A DNA stretch of 15,051 bases, taken from Amoebophrya sp. AT5.2. Lineage: Eukaryota; Sar; Dinophyceae; Syndiniales; Amoebophryaceae. How positions within the stretch are numbered: position 1 is the stretch's first letter; every line of letters begins with the position of its first letter. The translations under genes and the position numbers were made by a program. The DNA lies in assembly GCA_005223375.1 (NCBI GenBank), contig RXOD01005258.1:1-15051 (forward strand), given 5' to 3'. The notes beneath the pieces are model-generated. The model worked only from the letters and a program-made list of their open reading frames with translations. It searched no databases and was not told where the DNA came from. Shown here piece by piece: positions 375-15,051 of the stretch.

Positions 375-504
375 CTGGCGCAAGAAGATTTTTTGAGCAG
401 ATTTTTATAAAAAGAAGGTCGTGGGAGAGAAACATAAAACAAAATCGATCACAGAATAGCGATAGGATGCAGGAGCATGTGCATGGTGGGATCAGTCTAA
501 GTAC
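375..504 (-). other. GT-AG intron, 130 bp, N/Q-rich gene
   Basis: The intron starts GTACTTAG after an ACGCG exon end and finishes TTGCGCCAG before GGAACAAC. A pyrimidine-rich stretch lies in its 3' half. Removing it joins two long compositionally similar reading frames, both stop-free, and skips the in-frame TGA at 492-494. Confidence 0.6.
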
Positions 505-2513
505 CGCGTCCCCTGCTCCTGGCCTTTCGCGTAGCGGTCCTCCCCGCGGTACCCCCCTCCATGATACCAGTAACTGTTGCCGTCATCTCGCGGCATCGCT
601 CCGCGCTTCCCATGTTGACGGTCACCGTAGCCCCCCCCGCCTCCTTTCGGGTTCGCGTTCTGGTGGCTACCAGCATTCATGCCCATGCTCCCCGGGTTTG
701 CGTTCCGCAGCCCTCGGGTGCGATCGGTTGAGGGATGCTGCGCGCTGCCAGCATGGGGCGGATCGATGCGATGGATTGTATTCGGATTCGCAGGTGCAGC
801 GCCGCCCCCGCCTCCGTCCATCCCGTTATTCCCCGTCCTCACGTTCATGATCTGGTTATTCATCCCCGGATTCCCGACGGTCATCGCCGGAGTCCCGTTA
901 TATTGGGGGCCGGCCTTGCCGCTGATGTTGCTTAGGTTGTTGTTGCTCATTATTGGCCCTGCTGAGGTTGCTGCTGGGTTCATCATCATATTAGTTGATG
1001 TCGTAGTTGATGTCGTCCCCCCAATATTACCGATAGTAGTATGTTGTGGGGGGTTCGACTGCCCGCCATGTTGACCTTGAAGATGACCCCCATGTTGACC
1101 CTGACCCCCCGACGCGATCAGAGGCCGGGCGCTCGTCCCGTTGATCAGAGAGCCGTTCCCGGACAGCTGCTGGCCGCCGTCGGCGTTCCCATTCGGGTTC
1201 GGCTGGGCCTGCGGATTACTATATGGCTGCTGCTGCTGCACTTTAATATTTCCCCCTGTTGAGGTTGACGCCCCAGGGATATTCATGTTGGGGAACATCG
1301 TCATCGGTTTATTTCCTGGAAAACCCGTGCCCGTATTCCCCATCATCCCCGCGTTCTGTTGTTGGACGAGGAGGCTCTGGTTTACGACACCCGACAGGTT
1401 GTTGTAGCTCTGACAGCTCTGACTCTGTCCGCCGCCGCCGAAGGGCAGCTGCTGCTGGTTTTGGTGATTCTGGTGCAGCTTATGACTCTGGTTCTGGTGC
1501 AGCTGCATCAGCTGGTGGTCCAAATTGTGATTGCCCCCCGGAAGATGCCCTGTCGAGCCCACCCCCATTTGATCCCCAACAGTCGTGCCCGCACCAACCG
1601 TCACACCCTGCATGGGCCCCATTCCCGCCACCGTGATAGTATTACCCGATTGTTGAAGCTGCCCCGATGTCATGCCCTGCTGAAGCTGAGCTGATGGATT
1701 GTTCATCATGCCCTGCTGACCTGAAGTGTTGTTCACGACCGGCAGCAGCTGCGGGTTCTGACCCTGGGCTGGAGGCATCTGGTTGAACGCGAACTGATTC
1801 TGGCTGTGGCTCTGCTGGTGCTGGTTGCTCAAGTTGTTCACCACGTTCAGCATGTTGCCCATGTTATTGTTATTGGCAATACCTATACCGTTCATACCTC
1901 CACCGCCGCTACTGACGCTCAGGTTCGGGCCACTCAGGTTCATGGCCGCGGCCTGGACGAGGTTTTGGCTCAAGCTCAGGGCCGATTGCTGCGCCATCAT
2001 GTTCGCCCCCGCGCCCATGTTGTTCTGGCCCTGCCCAGGTGCTGCGACGCCGAGATTTAGTTGTGTGAGATTCTGATTAGGACCGCCCGCCCCGACATTC
2101 TGATTAGGACCCGGACCAGCATTGGCGCAAGAACTGCCTCCCAGCTGCGGCGTGCCCGTCAGCTGATGATGTTGCGGATTCATCATCCTGTTCATGTTGT
2201 TGGACTGCAGGTTGGGCGTGCCGGAAATGGTGGTGGAGGTGGAGGACGTGGGATTGAACTGCACGGCGCCAGGATTCATCTGGTGCTGTTGCGGTTGATG
2301 TTGATGTTGTTGTCCAACGACCGGATTCATGCCGTTGTTCATGATGTTGCTATGCTGGGGACCGGGTTGGTTCATGGCGGATTGATGCTGCGATTGACCG
2401 AAGCCGAGGTGGTTCGGTATCATCTGCGGACCCGCGGGACCCGGAACCCCCATCGCGGTGGAAAAACGATTTTCTGGGGCAACCTGCTGCGCCACCATCG
2501 CCTCCGGATTCAT
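505..2513 (-). CDS. Very large N/Q/G/M-rich low-complexity protein (main exon)
   Basis: This exon gives about 670 uninterrupted residues made mostly of Asn, Gln, Gly, Met, Ser and Pro, with runs such as HQHQPQQHQ, NNNNMGNMLN and GGGG. There is no recognisable globular domain, signal peptide or membrane segment. The end of the exon becomes RG/DR-rich and basic (GYGDRQHGKRG, GGGYRGEDRY). Such prion-like, disordered composition is typical of transcription coactivators and RNA-granule proteins, but this is composition, not homology. The first ATG, at 2513, is preceded by an in-frame TAG and by GCGCAG, a good splice acceptor. The ATG may therefore be the true start or the first codon of an internal exon joined to the similar exons at 2846-3390. 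Confidence 0.75.
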
Positions 2514-2845
2514 CTGCGCCTATGAAGAACCGAAGAACCCATGATACTGCGGTGCGTGGTATACTATGGCTTGCGTGATATGTAGCATCAGCCATCAGGC
2601 GAGAGAAGTACCAGAAGTAGAATCCATCGCGAGCAACTGGAAACTGCCGCAGTGCCTATATTATTGTTCCTCCGACAGAACCAGAAGCACTACTTCTGGT
2701 AACAGTTTATAGTTGTTGGCCTTGGCTGTGCTATACCAATGCCTATACCAATAGCTATTTCTCATGGCTGGTAGCGATCGATTTAGTGGCATCGAAAGCT
2801 TCTTTAAGGTATCGGTTTCTTCGGTGTAATTGTGGTCCTGCGGAG
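2514..2845 (-). other. Unresolved intron or 5' region between Q-rich exons
   Basis: The frame of the 3006 exon remains open down to a TAG near 2755, while the next exon needs phase 0 at 2513. Possible joins are a weak donor TCC|GTGGGC near 2846 to the acceptor at 2514-2519, or a non-canonical excision between CGCAG copies near 2837 and just upstream of 2513. I cannot choose between them. No other gene is seen here. Confidence 0.3.
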
Positions 2846-4099: not shown

Positions 4100-6497
4100 C
4101 TACCCCAGCCTTGGCGCGGAGAACACGCTTTCGTCCTCGCTGAGGACAGTGGTATTGGCCCCACCGCCCCCCGCGCCAACGGTTCCCAGCGCGCGGTGAT
4201 AGTCTCCGCTGTTGTTTACTATTTCCCCCACCCGCAACGAGGTGACCGAAGACACCGGCGAGCCCTCCGGCAGTAGGTGCTGCTGCTGCCTGCTACTGCT
4301 ACTGATCGATGGCCCATGCTGAAGATTCGTGGCCATGCTTGAAGAGGAGTAATATGCTCCTCCCGATTGCAGCTGTGTCGCAGAGGGGGGAAGAACAGCA
4401 CCGCCGCCTGATGTTGCCCGCAGCACGTTCACAGGAGGCGGCCGATCCCCGCTGTCCGATCCCACACTCATTTCATCCCCCCGGATGAAATGCGTGTGCT
4501 GGTGCCCCGGATTCTGTGGCGGCTCGCCGTAAAACAAAGAGGGCGCCTGTCGTGACCCCGTCTGCCGCTTCACCTGGGATGAAAGTATTACAAGTAAACT
4601 TGAAGTATGTCTATGTAGCAGTATGGCAAAAAAATTTTATCTATCAATCCGAAAGAAGCACGCATATGTGTTCCATCGCTCTTCCTGAGACTACTACTTC
4701 CCATACCGGAAAAAATCACCCCCACCTGGCTTCCAGCACTTGAGGACGTGGCGCCGCCCGCCCTCACGGATCCCTCGCGGGGGAGCGGTTGTCGGTTTGG
4801 CGGCGGTGTTGCGTCGTCGTCGTCCTTCATCGCGAGTAGCGTACGTAGATAGTTGCACGCGTCCCGGATCATGGGCGTGAGCATGGCCCCCTTGTCCTGC
4901 TCGACAAGCGTCTCCAGCTCATTCACTTTTTCCACCATCTCGATATTCCGCAGCGCCGCACTCTCGGGCTGCGAGAAGAGTCAGCAGTATCATTTAACAG
5001 AGTACTTACATAAAGAGTTAGAGTGGAGAGAGATAGACATAGACTCCAGTAGACGCCTGCTAAATTAGTAATACCTCGCTGTTGGATGCGAACAAGCGCC
5101 ATAGAAGCACAAAGCAGTGCCTGGCCTCGTGCTCGGTGTGAACTGAAAGCGATAGGCTACTTACAAGACTCGCCAGCAAAATAGTACCGGTCCTGAGCCG
5201 TGGGCCTTGGTGATGACGCTGCTCGAGGCCGAGCCCATTGCGCGCGCGGTCTCCTGCCGCTTTAGCTGAAACTCTAGCGCCTTCACCTGCCGCTGCAGCT
5301 CGTGGTTGCGCTGGCTCGTTTCTGTGGAGTGTAGATCGAAGATCATTTTGAAAAAGATAAATGAATGTCCGTGTCACTCATGGATCGGAGACGGAGCCTT
5401 CTAATCGGATCGCGATCGATTAATAAGATACTAGCCACCTCTAATACCTGCTATGCGGCGGTCGACGTCCTCCACGAGCTTCTTGCGCATGGTCTCCTTT
5501 GCGTTTTTGAGGTGCATGGTCACCTGAGTTTTTGAGGTGCATGGTCACCTGAAGTGAGAGGTTCGAGAATCATCCGATCGCTGTCCCTCACCACGTCGGC
5601 TTTGCACCGCTACGCATCGAGAAGTGAGTCCCAAACGGGTTCCACTTGAAAGAAGAAGATAGTACTTCATTTTCGTATTTTTTCCCTCGCTCCAGCGCGT
5701 TGTTGACTTGTAGGCGGTAGGTTTTGACTTCCTGCTCGAGCTGATCCCAGGAGTCTTTGCCTGCTTTGTACTGCTGCTCCAGCGGGGCCAAGTAGCTCTC
5801 CAGCAACTCCTGGATGGCGTCCGCCTTCTGCGCCAGAAGCACCGACGCCAGCCCCAGCACTTCCGTCAGCTTCACCATCCCTGACGAAGAAGAAGATAAT
5901 ATTTTTTTGAAATATAATTCGCTTCCTCTACCTCCGCAAACAGTGACAAGGTCAAGGAGGTATGAGAAGTACTAATCGATTGATACCTCCAAGGACCTGC
6001 GGGTTGTTGGCGTAGAAGGCGGAGTGCTCCACGATCGACTGCTGCACCTCCGCGATGTTGTCCTGTTGCGTGAAAATTTCATGTATTCCGATCCGATCCG
6101 ACAGACAGAAACGCCGCACTTCTCAGCCCGAAGGCGTTCCCTACCACGATCGACTGCTGGTGCTGCACCTCCGCGATGCCATCGCAGTTCTTCCGGTAGG
6201 GAAGAAGTGTTAATGTTATTGTTATCGTTGGGAATTATAAAGCTATGAAGCATCTATACTATCCATCGGACGGGTAGTACTTACGTCGAAGTGGTCCTGG
6301 AGGCGGTAGAGTTTCGATTGCAGGGCTTGGACGGCCTCGTGGCCCTTCGCGTGGTCGAACTGGCCTTCTTTCAGCTCGCTCAACGTGCGGTTCATTTTTT
6401 CGTTCAGCCCCACCAGCTGCGACAGGCCCCCCCGGAACCGCAGCCGCGGACTCCGTCCGGTCTGAGAGCCCCCCGGGCTAAAAACCAAATCCTCCAT
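4100..6497 (-). CDS. Coiled-coil protein of 476 residues, seven exons
   Basis: Exons on the minus strand: 6497-6285, 6062-5987, 5880-5666, 5523-5448, 5321-5188, 4968-4726, 4573-4100. All six introns are GT-AG and every join keeps frame, giving 476 residues. An in-frame TGA lies just upstream of the ATG at 6497, which supports the start. Residues about 25-290 are rich in L, E, K and Q with heptad-like spacing (LYRLQDHFD, AIQELLESYLAPLEQQYK, LQRQVKALEFQLKRQ, MVEKVNELETLVEQD), indicating a long coiled coil. The last roughly 180 residues are disordered, with DDDD, poly-S, RQQQH and GAGGGGAN tracts. No signal peptide or membrane helix is seen. I do not recognise the family; a cytoskeletal or scaffold role is the usual default for such architecture but is not shown. 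Two introns carry partial copies of adjacent exons. Confidence 0.8.
5503..5552. repeat. Exact 25-bp tandem duplication across a splice acceptor
   Basis: Positions 5503-5527 and 5528-5552 are identical. On the sense strand each copy contains TCAG|GTGACCATGCACC, meaning the 3' splice site plus the first 21 bases of exon 4 of the coiled-coil gene. Only the downstream acceptor (exon start 5523) keeps frame; use of the other acceptor would add 25 bases and shift the frame. Confidence 0.9.
6144..6178 (-). repeat. Partial copy of exon 2 inside intron 1 of the coiled-coil gene
   Basis: Positions 6144-6178 repeat exon 2 positions 6029-6057 (16 + 13 identical bases) with a 6-base insertion that keeps the codon frame (IAEVQ...QSIV). 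The copy sits about 115 bp upstream of the real exon in the 222-bp intron 6063-6284. It has no clear splice sites. Confidence 0.75.
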
Positions 6498-8029: not shown

Positions 8030-11000
8030 TCACTTGCGGGGTCGGAAGTCGGTCCACTTGAGGTAGTAGCACTCCTCCTCGTAGTTGCGCACCAGCGGAT
8101 GCTCCGGCGTTACAGGTCAAAAAAATGCATTGTTACACACACGACGGGAGGGCGTGGGCGGAAGCCGCGAGAATCGACGCGCCAGGGCTAGGCTGAGTGG
8201 GGAACGGCTACAGCAGTACAAGCGAAGTGCTATTTTTCCTCCACGCACGAGCATCTGGGTGCCAACAACCCCTGCTGCTGTTCTGGCGGCAGCGCGTTTT
8301 TGTGACGAGGCCAAGAGAGTCGGCCCGAAACGGACCAAAAAAGGGGGCGGCCGTTTTGATGAAAAGATGCGTCCAACAATGCATTTTTTTGAGCTGTAAC
8401 AGCGCCTGCTTCGTCGTCATCCGCCTCTGCACGTCGAACACCAAACACCGCTTGATGAAGTCCCGCACCTTTCATTTCGTGTAGTTGATTACATCTTTGC
8501 AAAACAGATGCTGGCTCCAGCAAGGCGGTGGATTAGAGAGCTGAAGCTACCTATGTACAGCTGTCCATCGCGATGGACCCATCGCGACCGGGGAGATGGA
8601 ACTAAAACGTGTACCTGTTTGTCGTACTGGAAGAAGGTGTGCGTGGTGAAGTCGATTTTCGCGAGTCGTAGTTTTCCCCGGATCTGTCGCATTTTCGGGT
8701 GTCCGACGTAGTTTTGCCCCGCCTCGTCGTCGAAAATCTCGTCGAGGAAGGGAAAGCTACCCGTGCACAGCTTGTACAGCATCACGCCTGAGCGGGTTCA
8801 TTTGGAATCAACAATAAAGAAGCAAATTTGATTGATATCGAATACTAATTCCGATGGTGCCAGCGGTTCGAACGAAGAAGGGCAAAGGTCGTTGGTGATA
8901 CTATGCAGATGCTTAGCTTCGCACTTCTTTAAGAATTCTTTTCCTACTTATGAAAGAATGCATTTTAGTGGCGATAACACTACTGCTACTGATGATACCC
9001 AGTGCGAAGATGTCGCTGGCGGTGGTGTAGTAGCCGTAGTAGCTTTCTGGCGCGATGTACTGGTCTGTACCCATCACGTCGTACACGCGCGTGTCGTCTC
9101 CTCGCGTGTACGACGTGATGGGCACGGACCAGTACCCTTTCACCCCCCTTGACCTCCCTCTAAGTCTATCCCCCCCCTCAACCCCCCCCACGATAAAGGA
9201 CGCGCTTCTTCTTCATATAAAGATAAGTTAATCTATACCCAGTGCGAAGATGTCGCTGGCGGTGGTGTAGTAGCCGTAGTAGCTTTCCGGCGCGATGTAC
9301 TGTTAGAGAGAGAAGCAAGCCATTTCCGGTTCTGTTTCTAGGCTCGTGCTGGGTCTCGTAGCCTACGCGACGAAATACGAGTCAAATACAGGCGAAATAT
9401 CGTCGACGCGCGATCAACATCCAAAACCCAATCCGCTGTAACTGCCTGAAGCTGCAACCCCCAAAGCGAAGCCTATCCCCGAAGCTTCCCTACAGTTTCG
9501 CCCTAAGCAATACAATACCCCATAGCCAGACCAATACAAGTCGAATACGAGTAAAATACGAGTCAAATACAACACCACACACGACCCTCATGGAGCCCAA
9601 TGCCTAGCACACAAATTCCGTGAGGACCTACAAGTCTCCTACTCCTTCTGACCTGTTCCCGGGGAAATGGGTTCATCCTCTCCTTAATACTGGTCTGTAC
9701 CCATCACGTCGTACACGCGCGTGTCGTCTCCGTACTCCTCCACGGTGTCAAAGTCAATCACTTTCAACACTCCGCGCTTCCCCGTGTCCATCAGGACCAC
9801 GTTCTCCAGCTTCACGTCCTTGTGCACCAGCGAAAGCCCCTCGTAGTCGCACAAAGCACGCATGCACTCGTACGCAACCTTTTTCATTGAATTGTGCGTA
9901 CGAATGCATCCGTAGGTATGAGCACTCGATCATACGGATCATAGAATCGAAGCCAGCATAGCTACGTACATTTTTTTCTCTCCCGGTCCCGCCTACCCTG
10001 ATGGAGGAAAACAAAACTCCCAGATTAAAACACCACCTTTTTCACGAAGAGAAGTTTTTGTCCGTCGTCCTGGATTTTGACGTGGTGTATGAACTCGAAT
10101 ATTAGAGGTTCGAAAAACTCAAGGCAGGGTCTAAGGCAGGCTTCGTCACAGACCCTCCCACTTCTGTGTCCGTCGGTACCCTTTCGAAGGGGTACGACGG
10201 CGAACACTAGCACGCAACACCTGCGACTCTACAGAAAGAGACCCCCAAGACGGCGACGGGCTGACACTTCCAGAGAGCGAAACGCCTTCAGATGTGACGG
10301 GTCTCGATAGCCTGTGATAAATCTCAAGGCTGCCTCCCGGATCCCAAACCCCTCTAGACAACCCCCCATCTGAACCGGTACTTGTAGCTAATCCCAGCCA
10401 CCCCGCCCCCTTTCCGGGGATCCTCAACATTCTCCACCGATCAATAGGCCTGCCTTAGGACCATAGCCTTGAGTTTTTTGAAGGCTTAAGAATAGGTCGA
10501 GGCCGTTCACGAGCTCCATCACGACGTAGTACGCGGTCGCGTCCTCGAAGAGATCGTAAAGCCCCGCGATGTGCTCGCCGAAATGCTCCTGCCAATTCAA
10601 CAAATTCTCCATGGCCAGCTTCCACGTGCTGATGTCTTAGGGGGGATGACTGCGGCTGTTCGCTGTGCTTGTTGTCAGAGTCTGGGCGATGAGGGCACAA
10701 CTCAGCTACAGCTAGAGCTACGACTCTCTACTAGGAGCCGCAGAAGTGTGCGAGGAACTACCAAGCAAAGAAGAACGACACGGCTCTCGGGGAAACGCTT
10801 CCTGCAGCTGGGACAGAGCACTGTTGCTGCAGGATGTTTTAGCACTGCCGACAGTTATTTAGAAACCAGCGATTCTTCTACTGGCTGGTGGCATCCGACG
10901 TCCGACTCCGAGTCCGACGACCCACTGATGCTGTAGCTCGCGGGTGCTAACCAGCCTGCTAGGGCGAGACGAGAAGAGCTACACTCGATAGCTGTCGGGA

Positions 11001-11499
11001 ATAAGGAATAGAAACCTCCGCCTGGTCTGACACCAGCGAACAGTAGAACCAGTACGAACTTGAGTCTATGATCTCTATTCCAATGCCTTAAATGTCGTTC
11101 GCGTCCTTGAAGCTGACGAGCTTCTCCCGTATCTTAATCACCACCTTCATACCGTCCCGGGTCCGCGTCGCAAAGTGCACCTCCTGTCCGCGGTGGGTGG
11201 AGGGCATCACCTGATCGACGTTAGATTTAAGCTATCATCTTCCCGCACGTATAAGTAAGTGAGTCGTACTGCCGAGACCACTGCTCCTGCTGAAGGCGGA
11301 TGGATGATGGCCGCTACCCCGACCTCTACCAGTATCTTCAGTATGATATGGGTACCTGGTCCAGTATCCTGTATTCCTTGCTGACGTCGCGGAGCCAGCG
11401 GCATTTTTTGCCCGAGCCGGTTCCTGGATTGGACGAGGATGAGGAAGCGGCGATGGAGCCGTCCGACTTCTCCTGCTTCATCCCCACAGACTTCAGCAT
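8030..11499 (-). CDS. Serine/threonine protein kinase, 343 residues, nine exons
   Basis: Exons (minus strand): 11499-11356, 11210-11092, 10631-10490, 10096-10037, 9878-9688, 9297-9239, 8787-8615, 8468-8400, 8104-8030. All joins keep frame. The protein is almost only a kinase domain: a short S/G-rich N-terminus, a degenerate glycine loop (THRGQEVHFAT), the ATP-binding lysine in VVIK (K74), a likely alpha-C glutamate (E96), the hinge YYVVMELVNG, the catalytic loop HKDVKLEN (D176, N181), IDFDTV in place of DFG (197-199), GTDQYIAPES (215-224), SDIFALG, and a C-lobe ending in RRMTTKQALEHPL. The HKD, DFD and GTDxYIAPE combination is, to my knowledge, typical of expanded kinase families in dinoflagellates. 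The catalytic residues are present, so activity is plausible. No signal peptide or membrane segment is seen, so it is probably cytosolic or nuclear. Substrate unknown. Exon 6 also exists as a second copy (8999-9057). Confidence 0.88.
8105..8404 (-). mobile_element. Introner-like element forming kinase intron 8 (TIR + 5-bp duplication)
   Basis: The element body 8110-8399 (290 bp) starts TTACAG and ends CTGTAA on the sense strand. Its first and last 25 bases are inverted repeats with one mismatch (core TCAAAAAAATGCATTGTT). The flanking 5-mers are CGCTG and CGCCG on the sense strand, a target-site-type duplication with one change. Removing the body plus one flank gives the frame QAL|EHPL, the expected kinase subdomain XI sequence. 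The ends are not GT-AG. Short TIR-bearing introns with target duplications fit the introner/MITE concept; no protein is encoded. Confidence 0.85.
8469..8614 (-). other. GT-AG intron 7 of the kinase gene, 146 bp
   Basis: Donor CAG|GTACACG and acceptor GAAAG|GTGCGG join DKQ to VRDF in frame. No inverted terminal repeats are seen, in contrast to intron 8. Confidence 0.7.
8995..9101 (-). repeat. Intron-less second copy of kinase exon 5 end plus exon 6
   Basis: Positions 8995-9062 match 9235-9302 with one difference (68 bp, offset 240). Positions 9058-9101 match 9688-9731 exactly (44 bp, offset 630). The two parts are fused without the 390 bp (element body plus one target duplication) that separates them in the main copy. 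The segment therefore reads GDDTRVYDVMGTDQYIAPES without interruption. The one base change (CCG to CCA, Pro) is synonymous. It could be an unused relic, an alternative exon, or the pre-insertion state. Confidence 0.85.
9057..9135. repeat. Imperfect palindrome: 33-bp arms, 13-bp loop
   Basis: The arms 9057-9089 and 9103-9135 are inverted copies matching at 31 of 33 positions. Each encodes RVYDVMGTDQY, on opposite strands. The two differences (GGT/GGC and ACA/ACG) are third-position and synonymous. The transcript of this intron could fold into a strong hairpin. Confidence 0.85.
9298..9692 (-). mobile_element. Introner-like element forming kinase intron 5
   Basis: The body 9303-9687 (385 bp) is flanked by identical CAGTA 5-mers (sense strand; 9298-9302 and 9688-9692). 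It begins TTAAGGAGAGG and ends CTCTCTAA on the sense strand. The inner ends show weaker inverted similarity, including CCATTTCC on both sides. Excision leaving one CAGTA joins GTDQ to YIAPES in frame; cutting at the nearby GT and AG would not. Inside, the motif AATACGAGTCAAATAC occurs twice (about 9375 and 9562 on the plus strand). No coding capacity was recognised. Confidence 0.8.
9877..10044 (-). other. Kinase intron 4 flanked by a 10-bp direct repeat
   Basis: The sense-strand sequence TGAAAAAGGT is present at both ends (10044-10035 and 9886-9877). The intron can be read as GT-AG (9879-10036, 158 bp; AAG|GTGGTG to AAAAAG|GTTGCG). Joining gives LLFVKK|VAYEC in frame. No clear inverted repeats. 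The long direct repeat suggests a duplication at the time of intron gain. Confidence 0.75.
10097..10494 (-). mobile_element. Introner-like element forming kinase intron 3 (long TIRs)
   Basis: The body 10102-10489 (388 bp) lies between identical TATTC 5-mers (sense strand; 10097-10101 and 10490-10494). On the sense strand it begins TTAAGCC and ends CCTCTAA. The outer ~36 bases are inverted repeats with small gaps, sharing AAAAACTCAAGGC and TAAGGCAGGC on both ends. Removing the body and one TATTC joins LDLF to EFIHHVK in frame. There are no GT-AG ends and no open reading frame of note. Confidence 0.85.
10632..11096 (-). mobile_element. Introner-like element forming kinase intron 2
   Basis: The body 10637-11091 (455 bp) lies between identical GACAT 5-mers (sense strand; 10632-10636 and 11092-11096). 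It begins TTAAGGCAT and ends CCCCCCTAA, so only about six terminal bases (TTARGG) are inverted-repeated. Removing the body and one GACAT restores DAND-I-STWKLAMENLL across a split Ile codon. It is the longest and most eroded of the four elements. Confidence 0.75.
11211..11355 (-). other. GT-AG intron 1 of the kinase gene, 145 bp
   Basis: Donor CAG|GTACCC and acceptor GATCAG|GTGATG share CAGGT at both borders. Joining gives YRILDQ|VMPSTHRGQE in frame. Nearly the same length as intron 7 (146 bp). Confidence 0.7.
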
Positions 11500-13382: not shown

Positions 13383-15051
13383 TCACGGTTTAAAATATCG
13401 CTTCGTGTCGCGAGTAACGGTTCGTTTTTTCTCCGCGGCGCAGCTGCTGGCATCAGAAGCGATCTCTACGTCTTCGTTCTCTTTCGGGGAGTCTGCGTCG
13501 TTCTTCCCAGCCGAGCGCTCTTCTCCGACATCCGCCGGAGAAGCCTCCTTCTTGTCGCCTTCGTCTGTCTTCCCAGCCGGGCGCTCTTCCTCCGCCGGAC
13601 GCGCATCCTCCTTCTCGTCGTCCCCACTCTCGGGTTTAAAATATCGATTCGTGGTGCGAGTAACGGTTCGTTTTTTCTCCCCGGCGCAGCTGCTGCCCCC
13701 ATCAGAACCGCTCTCTGCGTCTGCGTCCTCGTCAGGAGAGTCTGCATCTTCTTGGTCGTGGTACTCAGCTTGCTCGTCAGGAAAGTCTGCATCTTCTTGG
13801 TCGTGGTTGTACTCAGCTTGCTCGTCAGGAAAGTCTGCATCTTCTTGGCCGTCCGCAGTACTCACCGACGTAGTGGCACTCACCGATGCCGCACCGATGC
13901 CGCAGCTCTCCCCCACGAACTTAGCCTTGCCGCTGTAGCCCTTCGGCTTCATGCAGCAGCGGTAGTGGTACGCCGTCCAGGCTTCGCCCTGGTACCCCAG
14001 AGCAGCAGCTAGTACTATTGGTATTGTTCTTCCCCTTCGACGGCGACGAATCCCGGCGCTCTTTGTTGAGAATATGTTTGCATTTGGCATCCTCAGCACG
14101 CCCACGATCATCCCCTTCCTTATCCCAACCGCCAGCATCGGATTTTCTGTCGAGCCGCTTCATACACTCATTCACTTCGGCGCTGTGCTCGTCCTTGTCG
14201 TCGTCGGTCACGGGCGGCGCCTCTTTCGGCGGCTGCTCCTGTTCGCATTCGTGCGGCACGGGCGGCAACTTGTGCATGTCTGGCGTCTTCAGTCGCAACA
14301 GTGTGCCGGAGCCAGGCTTTTTCATCGCGCCCTTCTCCAGTGCTGCGCACCGCCTGTACCCGTGGCAGGAGCGCGTGTCGCTGTCGTGCCACAACCATTC
14401 GCAGGTTTCAATCAGCAGGCAGAGCTCCTTGCACCTTTCTAGCCGTCGCGGTTCGTTCGAAACGCACTTTTTATCGCCTTCCTTGTAGTAGTCATACCAC
14501 TTCACGGATATGTCGGGGTCGCACGTCACTTTGATGTCCCACTTTGCCAGCAAAAAACTACCCACGTCCGCTTTGGGGTCGTCCGATTCGCACTTTTCTT
14601 CTGGCGCGCTTCTGCCGCTCCCAAATTTCTCGAAAGGGTCCCTGTCTCCTCCCGCCTTCAGCTGCGCCAGCTCCTTGCGGCAAATTCTTCCCCCAGAAAT
14701 TTCCACGGCTGCGTGAACCACAGACGGAACCGCTAGGATCGCGTCGTACGTCTGCAGATGGCAGTACGCTGACAATAGACTCCAATGCGAAAACGTAAAG
14801 TAGTAGCACGACGGCGTCGACGCACACAGCAACTGGCATTCTTGGTACGATTTCACGTACCCGCGGCCCTCAGTGTTGGTGCCGAAGACGTAGCCCATGC
14901 CGTCCTCCAGGGTCCCGACTGAGTTCTCCTGGTGGCCCCCTACATACCTCTTTTTCTTGGTCAGGCCGCAGAAGTCGAAGGCCTTGGATGCGGGTGAACT
15001 CTGGTGTCTAGAAGTGTCCAGCAGACTGCTGCTTCGCGCCGTCCTCGCTGC
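13383..15051 (-). CDS. Cysteine-rich PAN/Apple-like protein with acidic repeat tail (5' end missing)
   Basis: The frame is open from the right edge, so the N-terminus is missing. The first visible module (about 14975-14680) has the spacing of a PAN/Apple domain: FDFCGL, then ECQLLC, SCYYFTFS, YCHLQ and ICRK. A second Cys-rich module (about 14500-14290) has KCVS, RCKELC, CEWLWH and SCHGYRRC. PAN/Apple modules bind proteins or carbohydrates outside the cell, so secretion or a surface location is inferred; the signal peptide would lie beyond the edge. Between about 14030 and 13990 the frame changes: upstream coding ends near NNTNS, and coding resumes with GYQGEAWTAYHYRCC in another frame. The C-terminus is acidic, with DADFPDEQAEY repeats and two copies of a KKRTVTR..RYFKP module, ending at the TGA at 13383. 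Confidence 0.7.
13386..13694 (-). repeat. Two copies of a 21-residue C-terminal module
   Basis: Positions 13386-13448 and 13632-13694 encode SSCA.EKKRTVTR.T.RYFKP, with three residue differences. One copy forms the extreme C-terminus. Between them lies an E/K/D/A/P-rich linker. Confidence 0.85.
13725..13855 (-). repeat. Acidic tandem repeat in the PAN-like protein
   Basis: Three imperfect units of about 45-51 bp encode DADFPDEQAEY-(N)-HDQE-type sequence. The DNA units share AGTCTGCATCTTCTTGG on the plus strand and differ by a 3-base indel plus a few substitutions, so the repeat is recent and length-variable in frame. Confidence 0.85.

Follow-up and report, generated by a model that had tools for sequence, protein, structure and literature searches.

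Non-canonical introner elements have been described in Amoebophrya, where they carry inverted repeats and direct repeats of 3-5 nt (PMC7789003). According to that report, the inverted-repeat families of A25 begin with TTA followed by two purines, and the mean length of a non-canonical intron is 120 nt for A25 as opposed to 240 nt for A120; how Amoebophrya recognises non-GT-AG introns is left open there. MITE-like introners are reported to create introns in other eukaryotes, dinoflagellates included, and their splice sites may derive from the duplication; in a Symbiodinium introner, the 4-bp duplication supplies the 5' splice site and the element carries the 3' splice site (PMC9860276). A recent intron with an 8-nt direct repeat has also been reported (PMC4770533).

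In the present study, we analysed a window of 15,051 bases (the whole stretch of DNA considered), in which one predicted kinase gene contains four TTA...TAA elements. They are of the kind already published for Amoebophrya (PMC7789003), to which they add members; the preliminary description had rightly stated that related elements are reported there. They are very probably introner elements, that is, non-autonomous DNA-transposon-like inserts in exons that are now introns and are removed without a fixed GT-AG. With the introners of A25 and A120 they share predicted non-GT-AG borders, terminal inverted repeats, direct repeats at the junctions, and repeated families, as well as the TTA start (A25), genes that mix both kinds of intron, and a dinoflagellate host (PMC7789003). 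Elements 1-3 conform to the 8-20 nt inverted repeats of Amoebophrya introners (18, 8, and 13) and to their repeated families (40 scored places each), whereas element 4 (3) conforms to neither. The present bodies (221-591 bp), the 5-bp repeat, and the TTACA start of family A differ from A25 and A120; in addition, orientation to the gene is nearly fixed here, a point on which the main text of PMC7789003 has no statement under the terms orientation and antisense, and our junctions are predicted from sequence alone. Whether the TTA-ended family was a described one had been left undecided: the wording for A25 in PMC7789003 fits elements 2-4 (sense starts TTAAG, TTAGA, and TTAGG), but element 1 (TTACA) falls outside it.

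The MITE-like character is shared with the introners of PMC9860276, some families of which have target duplications, inverted repeats, or both; unlike in the Symbiodinium introner, no splice dinucleotide is fixed here. Variable borders, direct repeats, end pairing, and a suspected MITE origin are shared with euglenid and diplonemid nonconventional introns (PMC6221363, PMC4770533, PMC12621601), whereas the host phylum differs and a dinoflagellate spliced leader is found here. The term orientation is absent from the available text of PMC6221363 and PMC12621601, and TTA from that of PMC12621601. The orientation bias, the coding location, and a natural empty site, described below, narrow the recognition question, since these three features would not be expected from a hairpin alone or from DNA excision. 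One small kinase gene with four elements is a compact test case.

Results

The features of the locus are as follows (5-mers are given on the plus strand, element ends on the sense strand).

8030..11499, minus strand: predicted protein kinase gene (putative start codon), 9 coding exons and 8 introns
11211..11355, minus strand: GT-AG intron 1, 145 nt (joined reading frame)
10637..11091, minus strand: element 4, TTAAGGCATTGG...CCCCCCTAA, within codon 88 (KDAND/I); single copy
10632..10636 and 11092..11096, minus strand: 5-mer of element 4, ATGTC, 5/5
10102..10489, minus strand: element 3, family C, TTAAGCCTTCAAAAAACTC...GAACCTCTAA, between amino acids 135 and 136 (DLF/EFI)
10097..10101 and 10490..10494, minus strand: 5-mer of element 3, GAATA, 5/5
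9879..10036, minus strand: GT-AG intron 4, 158 nt (joined reading frame)
9303..9687, minus strand: element 2, family B, TTAAGGAGAGG...TCTCTCTAA, within codon 219 (DQY/IAPE)
9298..9302 and 9688..9692, minus strand: 5-mer of element 2, TACTG, 5/5
8788..9238, minus strand: GT-AG intron 6, 451 nt (joined reading frame); holds the empty-site duplicate
8995..9101, minus strand: empty site of element 2 within GT-AG intron 6, an exon-pair duplicate lacking the element, with one TACTG
8469..8614, minus strand: GT-AG intron 7, 146 nt (joined reading frame)
8110..8399, minus strand: element 1, family A, TTACAGCTCAAAAAAATGC...GACCTGTAA, between amino acids 319 and 320 (QAL/EHP)
8105..8109, minus strand: 5-mer of element 1, CGGCG, 4/5 match to 8400-8404
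8400..8404, minus strand: 5-mer of element 1, CAGCG; sense CGCTG reads Leu, compare QALEHP in PDB 3lij

When the four bodies, each with one 5-mer, and the four GT-AG introns (145, 158, 451, and 146 nt) were taken out, one open kinase was obtained. The joined product matched Pkinase (PF00069, E 6.9e-38) at amino acids 59-323, and its best PDB match was 3lij (E 2.4e-24). The preliminary description, which counted eight introns, four of them of the TTA...TAA design, and held that exact removal of body plus one 5-mer restores frame and kinase in all four, was therefore borne out. The genome also contains a kinase paralog in which none of the four inserts is present.

The proposed TTA...TAA ends with flanking 5-mers were found in all four bodies (three 5/5, one 4/5). 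Inverted repeats, first put at about 6 to about 36 bp, are present in elements 1-3, but the upper value was too long: without gaps, element 1 has 25 bp with one mismatch (longest exact run 18), and the exact runs of elements 2 and 3 are 8 and 13. In element 4 the repeat is nearly absent (run 3), the arms agreeing only as TTA.GG. A scan of the window for TTA...TAA of 150-700 bp, with a 5/5 flanking repeat, or 4/5 plus an inverted-repeat run of at least 7, returned these four elements only. Across 100 dinucleotide shuffles, the mean count of pairs with a 5/5 repeat was 0.94 (maximum 4, against 3 observed), and that of pairs with an inverted-repeat run of at least 7 was 0.07 (maximum 1, against 3 observed); thus, it is the inverted repeats that place elements 1-3 beyond chance, and the 5/5 repeats alone would not suffice. 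Element 4 is indistinguishable from chance by its anatomy, and its support comes from the kinase reading and the paralog without the insert.

Among all 64 terminal triplets, tested in 180,385 bases from 65 loci, all fetched for holding family members, only TTA was in excess, with 24 hits (5/5 repeat, inverted-repeat score of at least 8); ten Markov-model shuffles gave 0.0 hits and every other triplet gave at most 1. A chance origin of elements 1-3 is ruled out by the shuffles and this control. The repeat is 5 bp long, agreement past position 5 on the side tested being at chance (2 to 10 of 24 per position). When the loci were scanned generically for repeats of other designs, each design gave counts of 1-2 and just 2 of the TTA elements were recovered; the scan was thus insensitive and shows little.

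Elements 1-3 belong to repeated families. The first-look candidates numbered 115 for family A, 79 for family B, and 62 for family C, of which 40 were scored in each case; these yielded 58 matching pieces for family A (a figure that contains its own copy and matches between arms), 46 for family B, and 48 for family C. With up to two mismatches, the sense 5' arm of element 1 had 193 matches, some of which are the opposite arm (reversed-pattern control, 1), and that of element 3 had 45 (control, 2). In the case of element 4, a sequence search for relatives gave its own copy only. The set of 51 elements studied further, with bodies of 221-591 bp, omits the element 4 of the window because its inverted-repeat score lay under the limit. 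Copies were identical to their best relatives at a median of 76-87%, depending on the family, and related copies of elements 1-3 carry differing 5-bp duplications.

The traits of a MITE (terminal inverted repeats, a target duplication of fixed length, multiple copies, and short length) are all seen in elements 1-3; element 4 has the duplication and the size only. The empty site of element 2, a duplicate of 107 bp, is identical to the joined flanks at 102 of 103 bases. Transposon-like insertion, first proposed for all four, is favoured for elements 1-3 by related copies with different duplications, by this empty site, and by the insert-free paralog; element 4, a single copy without real inverted repeats, calls for reserve.

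When the reading frames of the two flanks were called separately for the 51 elements, with codon statistics trained on open frames from the same loci, exact removal fitted 44 of the 44 usable pairs, 7 of the 51 being unusable (in 6 the strands differed and 1 was weak). The 608 decoy pairs fell into the three phases as 96, 80, and 73, the remainder being unusable. In the counts with n = 50 (stops and GT-AG), one element, L004, was omitted owing to its negative coding call. A stop occurred within 90 nt past the junction in 3/50 at exact removal, and in 32 and 10 when the junction was shifted by 1 or 2 nt. The coding flank was missing in 0/50, compared with 31% of random points. In 11/50, an in-frame TAA begins within the first 3 nt of the body, and 19/50 have their terminal TAA in frame.

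Of the family copies in the fetched loci, which are not every copy of the genome, 87 of 88 callable ones are sense to the gene and 1 is antisense (9 were weak, 2 lacked a usable flank, and 14 duplicate places were removed). The sole antisense call, L004, is doubtful, since most wider windows are coding on the strand that makes it sense, although the nearest left window is opposite. Removal as introns is supported by the predicted frame restoration (44/44) together with this orientation (87/88). The exact junctions remain putative. Mismatched duplications were also compared in order to place the exact cut, but in 10 cases the differences in coding score were small and of mixed sign; the QALEHP position of the kinase alone favours the sense-strand 5' copy.

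Discussion

We propose that a short, non-autonomous, DNA-transposon-like element would enter an exon of a dinoflagellate gene by a 5-bp staggered cut, presumably made by a transposase, and leave a 5-bp target duplication behind. The pre-mRNA would then lose the element and one copy of the 5-mer, probably through a spliceosome with relaxed choice of splice sites, and the original protein would be restored. The ends of the element, not GT-AG, would set the cut points. Removal would also require signals having direction, because the copies share one orientation relative to the gene. The specific version, in which the splicing machinery cuts by the transposon ends (TTA...TAA plus the 5-bp duplication) and recognises a directional signal within the element, is tentative, and we rate it at somewhat below an even chance. 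If it is true, new introns would be usable at almost any exon site, in a single orientation only.

Alternatively, ordinary splice sites of the GT-AG type (or GC-AG, GA-AG) close to the ends could serve the same elements, with codons gained or lost, and codon-adding introners are reported in other systems (PMC9860276). When the cut was free to shift as far as the next in-frame stop, or by up to 12 nt on the exon side, a frame-keeping GT-AG pair was available in 37/50 elements (GC-AG 37/50, GA-AG 38/50), so that the sequence excludes such GT-AG splicing in just 13/50, element 2 included. However, GT-AG is available at the repeat boundary in only 4/51, none of the slide positions has a fixed dinucleotide, and, among the 15 listed coding members of family C, 12 have a sense 5' end free of GT over its first 28 nt. 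Splicing without GT-AG, as originally suggested, thus gains support at the level of sequence, and we consider ordinary sites improbable. Removal by an inverted-repeat hairpin alone, independent of the spliceosome, has been considered for euglenid nonconventional introns, and end pairing is discussed both in those papers and in PMC7789003. An end-to-end stem was indeed predicted in 47/47 family members tested, but the antisense strand forms the same stem (also 47/47); thus, the hairpin alone fails to explain the orientation bias. Moreover, the covariation between arms that would indicate selection on the hairpin was not found within copies (p 0.06 to 0.51), and element 4 has no pairing ends. 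We regard this explanation as unlikely, if slightly less so than ordinary sites.

The orientation bias likewise argues against excision at the DNA level, whether through programmed elimination or through the precise excision of a transposon, in the manner of the internal eliminated sequences of ciliates. DNA-elimination systems do lose exactly the element and one repeat copy, and one empty site is present; however, such removal has no reason to track the direction of transcription, and the spliced-leader copies point to a dinoflagellate rather than a ciliate, so we hold it very improbable. RNA-mediated spread by reverse splicing would give the sense orientation (87/88) and the genic location (no coding flank missing) directly, but it does not lead one to expect 5-bp duplications and inverted repeats with a constant end triplet, which are marks of DNA transposition; we consider it improbable, slightly more so than ordinary sites. 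The least probable reading, with hardly any weight, is that the insertions are unspliced and the genes are dying. Many element ends do hold in-frame stops, yet the flanking exons are open (a stop past the junction in 3/50) while the copies stand at 76-87% median identity, and four inserts lie within one otherwise intact kinase.

Searches for U1 snRNA and U2 gave no match; as U2 was also missed and the control genomes gave none either, nothing follows from the empty U1 search. The pattern of the dinoflagellate spliced leader had 18 exact and 15 one-mismatch matches, with 0 in the control, and these predicted copies identify the host as a dinoflagellate. The GC content is 53.3% in the window and 56.3% in the loci used.

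Four probable non-GT-AG introns in a kinase gene

The window, C1462, is one entire contig of an assembly of 50.7 Mb in 2,759 contigs. It contains the following gene.

11499 to 8030, minus strand: protein kinase gene, nine exons joined into a single open frame

The joined frame bridges four GT-AG introns (145, 158, 451, and 146 nt) and four TTA...TAA segments, here called elements 1 to 4 (bodies 8110-8399, 9303-9687, 10102-10489, and 10637-11091), in agreement with the preliminary description, which had counted four of the eight introns as non-GT-AG. Removal of each body with one copy of its flanking 5-mer was said to restore the kinase, and it does: the joined product matches Pkinase (E 6.9e-38, aa 59-323, profile search) and many kinases in the PDB, the best being 3lij. 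The 3lij alignment (aa 103-326) spans three element junctions (DLF/EFI, DQY/IAPE, and QAL/EHP), and the fourth, KDAND/I (aa 88, element 4), is covered by a paralog.

Each element begins with TTA and finishes with TAA, and the two flanking 5-mers agree fully in three elements and at 4/5 bases in one, as previously noted. The four are the sole matches in the window to this repeat-flanked design. Three 5/5 repeats were observed, against a mean of 0.94 and a maximum of 4 in 100 shuffles of the window; inverted-repeat runs of at least 7 were also observed three times, against a mean of 0.07 and a maximum of 1. Inverted terminal repeats had been ascribed to all four elements; runs of at least 7 were found in three, and the ends of element 4 show no clear inverted repeat. 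GT-AG intron 4 carries GAAAAAG at its 3' end (9879-9885), as does the end of the preceding exon (10037-10043); this 7-bp direct repeat may likewise be an insertion scar.

Related copies in the genome

Genome searches gave 58 matching pieces for element 1 (family A), 46 for element 2 (family B), and 48 for element 3 (family C), the window's own included; they came from 40 scored places in each case, of 115, 79, and 62 first-look candidates, respectively. The search with element 4 found no further copy. With up to 2 mismatches, the sense 5' arms of elements 1 and 3 had 193 and 45 matches (reversed-pattern controls, 1 and 2); these are not copy numbers, because some copies, the window's own included, match with both arms. 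Family A matches often lie less than about 200 bases from contig ends (for example, in contigs C503, C1392, C1914, and C2259). The assembly seems to break inside family A elements, and copy numbers are therefore probably underestimated.

The expectation of many related copies elsewhere was borne out for elements 1 to 3. Sixty-five loci (180,385 bases), which were fetched for holding family members and are not a random sample, contained 24 TTA...TAA segments with a 5/5 repeat and an inverted-repeat score of at least 8, against 0.0 in ten Markov-model shuffles; under the same criteria none of the other 63 of 64 terminal triplets gave more than 1. Five of 31 listed elements (in L024, L034, L045, L051 at 235, and L060 at 2385) were not the reason for which their locus was fetched. 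The 5-bp repeats differ from copy to copy, and the closest full-length pair is 94.6% identical.

Reading frame and splice sites

For 51 scan-found elements, the coding frame was called independently on the 120 nt of either flank, based on codon statistics of the same loci (99 open frames of at least 250 codons). One flank pair was weak and six had differing strands; in all 44 others, exact removal of the body and one 5-mer restored the phase. With shorter flanks, 43/44 (90 nt) and 39/39 (60 nt) agreed. Among 608 decoys (TTA...TAA pairs with at most 2/5 matching repeat bases), 222 gave weak calls and 137 disagreed in strand; the rest were spread over the three phases (96, 80, and 73). Body length plus 5 falls into all three classes modulo 3 (21, 22, and 8); therefore, 30/51 elements would shift the frame if retained. 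A stop within 90 nt past the junction occurred in 3/50 after exact removal, and in 32/50 and 10/50 when the junction was shifted by 1 and 2 nt.

Of the 51 elements, 4 allow GT-AG at the six potential cut positions inside the repeat, 20 an AG acceptor alone, and 25 a GT donor alone. The dinucleotide varies at each of these positions, and the proposed absence of GT-AG is supported at the sequence level. An in-frame TAA starts at one of the first three nucleotides in 11/50 bodies, and the terminal TAA is in frame in 19/50. When the cut was allowed to fall anywhere in the open frame or up to 12 nt inside the exons, a frame-keeping GT-AG pair was available in 37/50 and in none of the other 13, element 2 among them. 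As judged from these sequences, GT-AG is excluded for a quarter of the elements and is unlikely in the remainder because no site is fixed.

Origin and orientation of the elements

A duplicate at 8995-9101 in GT-AG intron 6 contains the exons flanking element 2 with one TACTG and no element, and is identical to the joined flanks at 102/103 bases. It represents either the pre-insertion state or a copy made after removal, and it may also be a product of assembling two alleles. An inverted copy of its end follows at 9103-9134 (about 94%), making 8995-9135 an intronic fold-back duplication of coding sequence. The kinase paralog on contig C1908 (L113) aligns in two stretches (37% over aa 47-204 and 41% over aa 201-326); a break of its own falls near aa 204, and none of the four element positions is interrupted. 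Another on contig C2000 (L115; 46%, aa 197-319) is uninterrupted at the element 2 position. Both paralogs, 37-46% identical to the kinase, have the motif GTDQYIAPE.

Nearly all family members examined lie in the sense orientation: when written in the sense direction, members aligned plus to plus in 13/13 (family A), 18/18 (family B), and 15/16 (family C), the exception, locus L004, having a negative coding call. Under relaxed criteria, after 14 duplicate places were dropped, 87 copies were called sense and one, the doubtful L004, antisense; another 9 were weak or non-coding, and 2 had no usable flank. Among the 50 elements whose flanks were long enough, coding calls of a single strand were made on both sides in 36, on one side in 14, and on neither in 0. 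For random points in loci longer than 2.5 kb, the corresponding shares were 28%, 38%, and 31%, with differing strands in a further 3%.

Neither DNA-level excision nor removal by a hairpin alone predicts this bias; an end-to-end stem is predicted in 47/47 sense and 47/47 antisense RNAs, and pairing between the two arms is no better within copies than between copies (p 0.06 to 0.51). Spread through RNA would also predict sense orientation, but it does not predict the 5-bp duplications. Selection does predict the bias: antisense copies would be unspliceable and hence selected against. In a comparison by eye, no directional signal was located within the elements, because their ends are inverted repeats, and the purine-rich 5' end and pyrimidine-rich 3' end look much alike in both orientations.

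Comparison with published introners

Non-canonical introns exceed 60% in Amoebophrya A25 and A120, introner elements there have inverted repeats of 8-20 nt and direct repeats of 3-5 nt, A25 families start with TTA and two purines, and U1 was not detected, the splicing mechanism being left open (PMC7789003). Such introns seem limited to part of the genus (PMC12005148); introners are covered broadly in PMC9860276 and reviewed in PMC11453091. The present elements form new families of the kind described in PMC7789003; to that description they add the empty site of element 2, the phase test, and, probably, the orientation bias.

U1 and U2 snRNA searches of the genome were both empty and uninformative. 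The dinoflagellate spliced-leader pattern had 18 exact and 15 one-mismatch matches in the genome (control, 0).

Other features of the window

492-2519, minus strand: 675-codon open frame, Gln-, Asn-, and Gly-rich
13383-14159, minus strand: 258-codon open frame, acidic repeats of the DADFPDEQAEY type

Neither frame had a Pfam match. A tandem pair of 25-base copies, G[CA]GTTTTTGAGGTGCATGGTCACCT, was seen by eye at 5501-5550.
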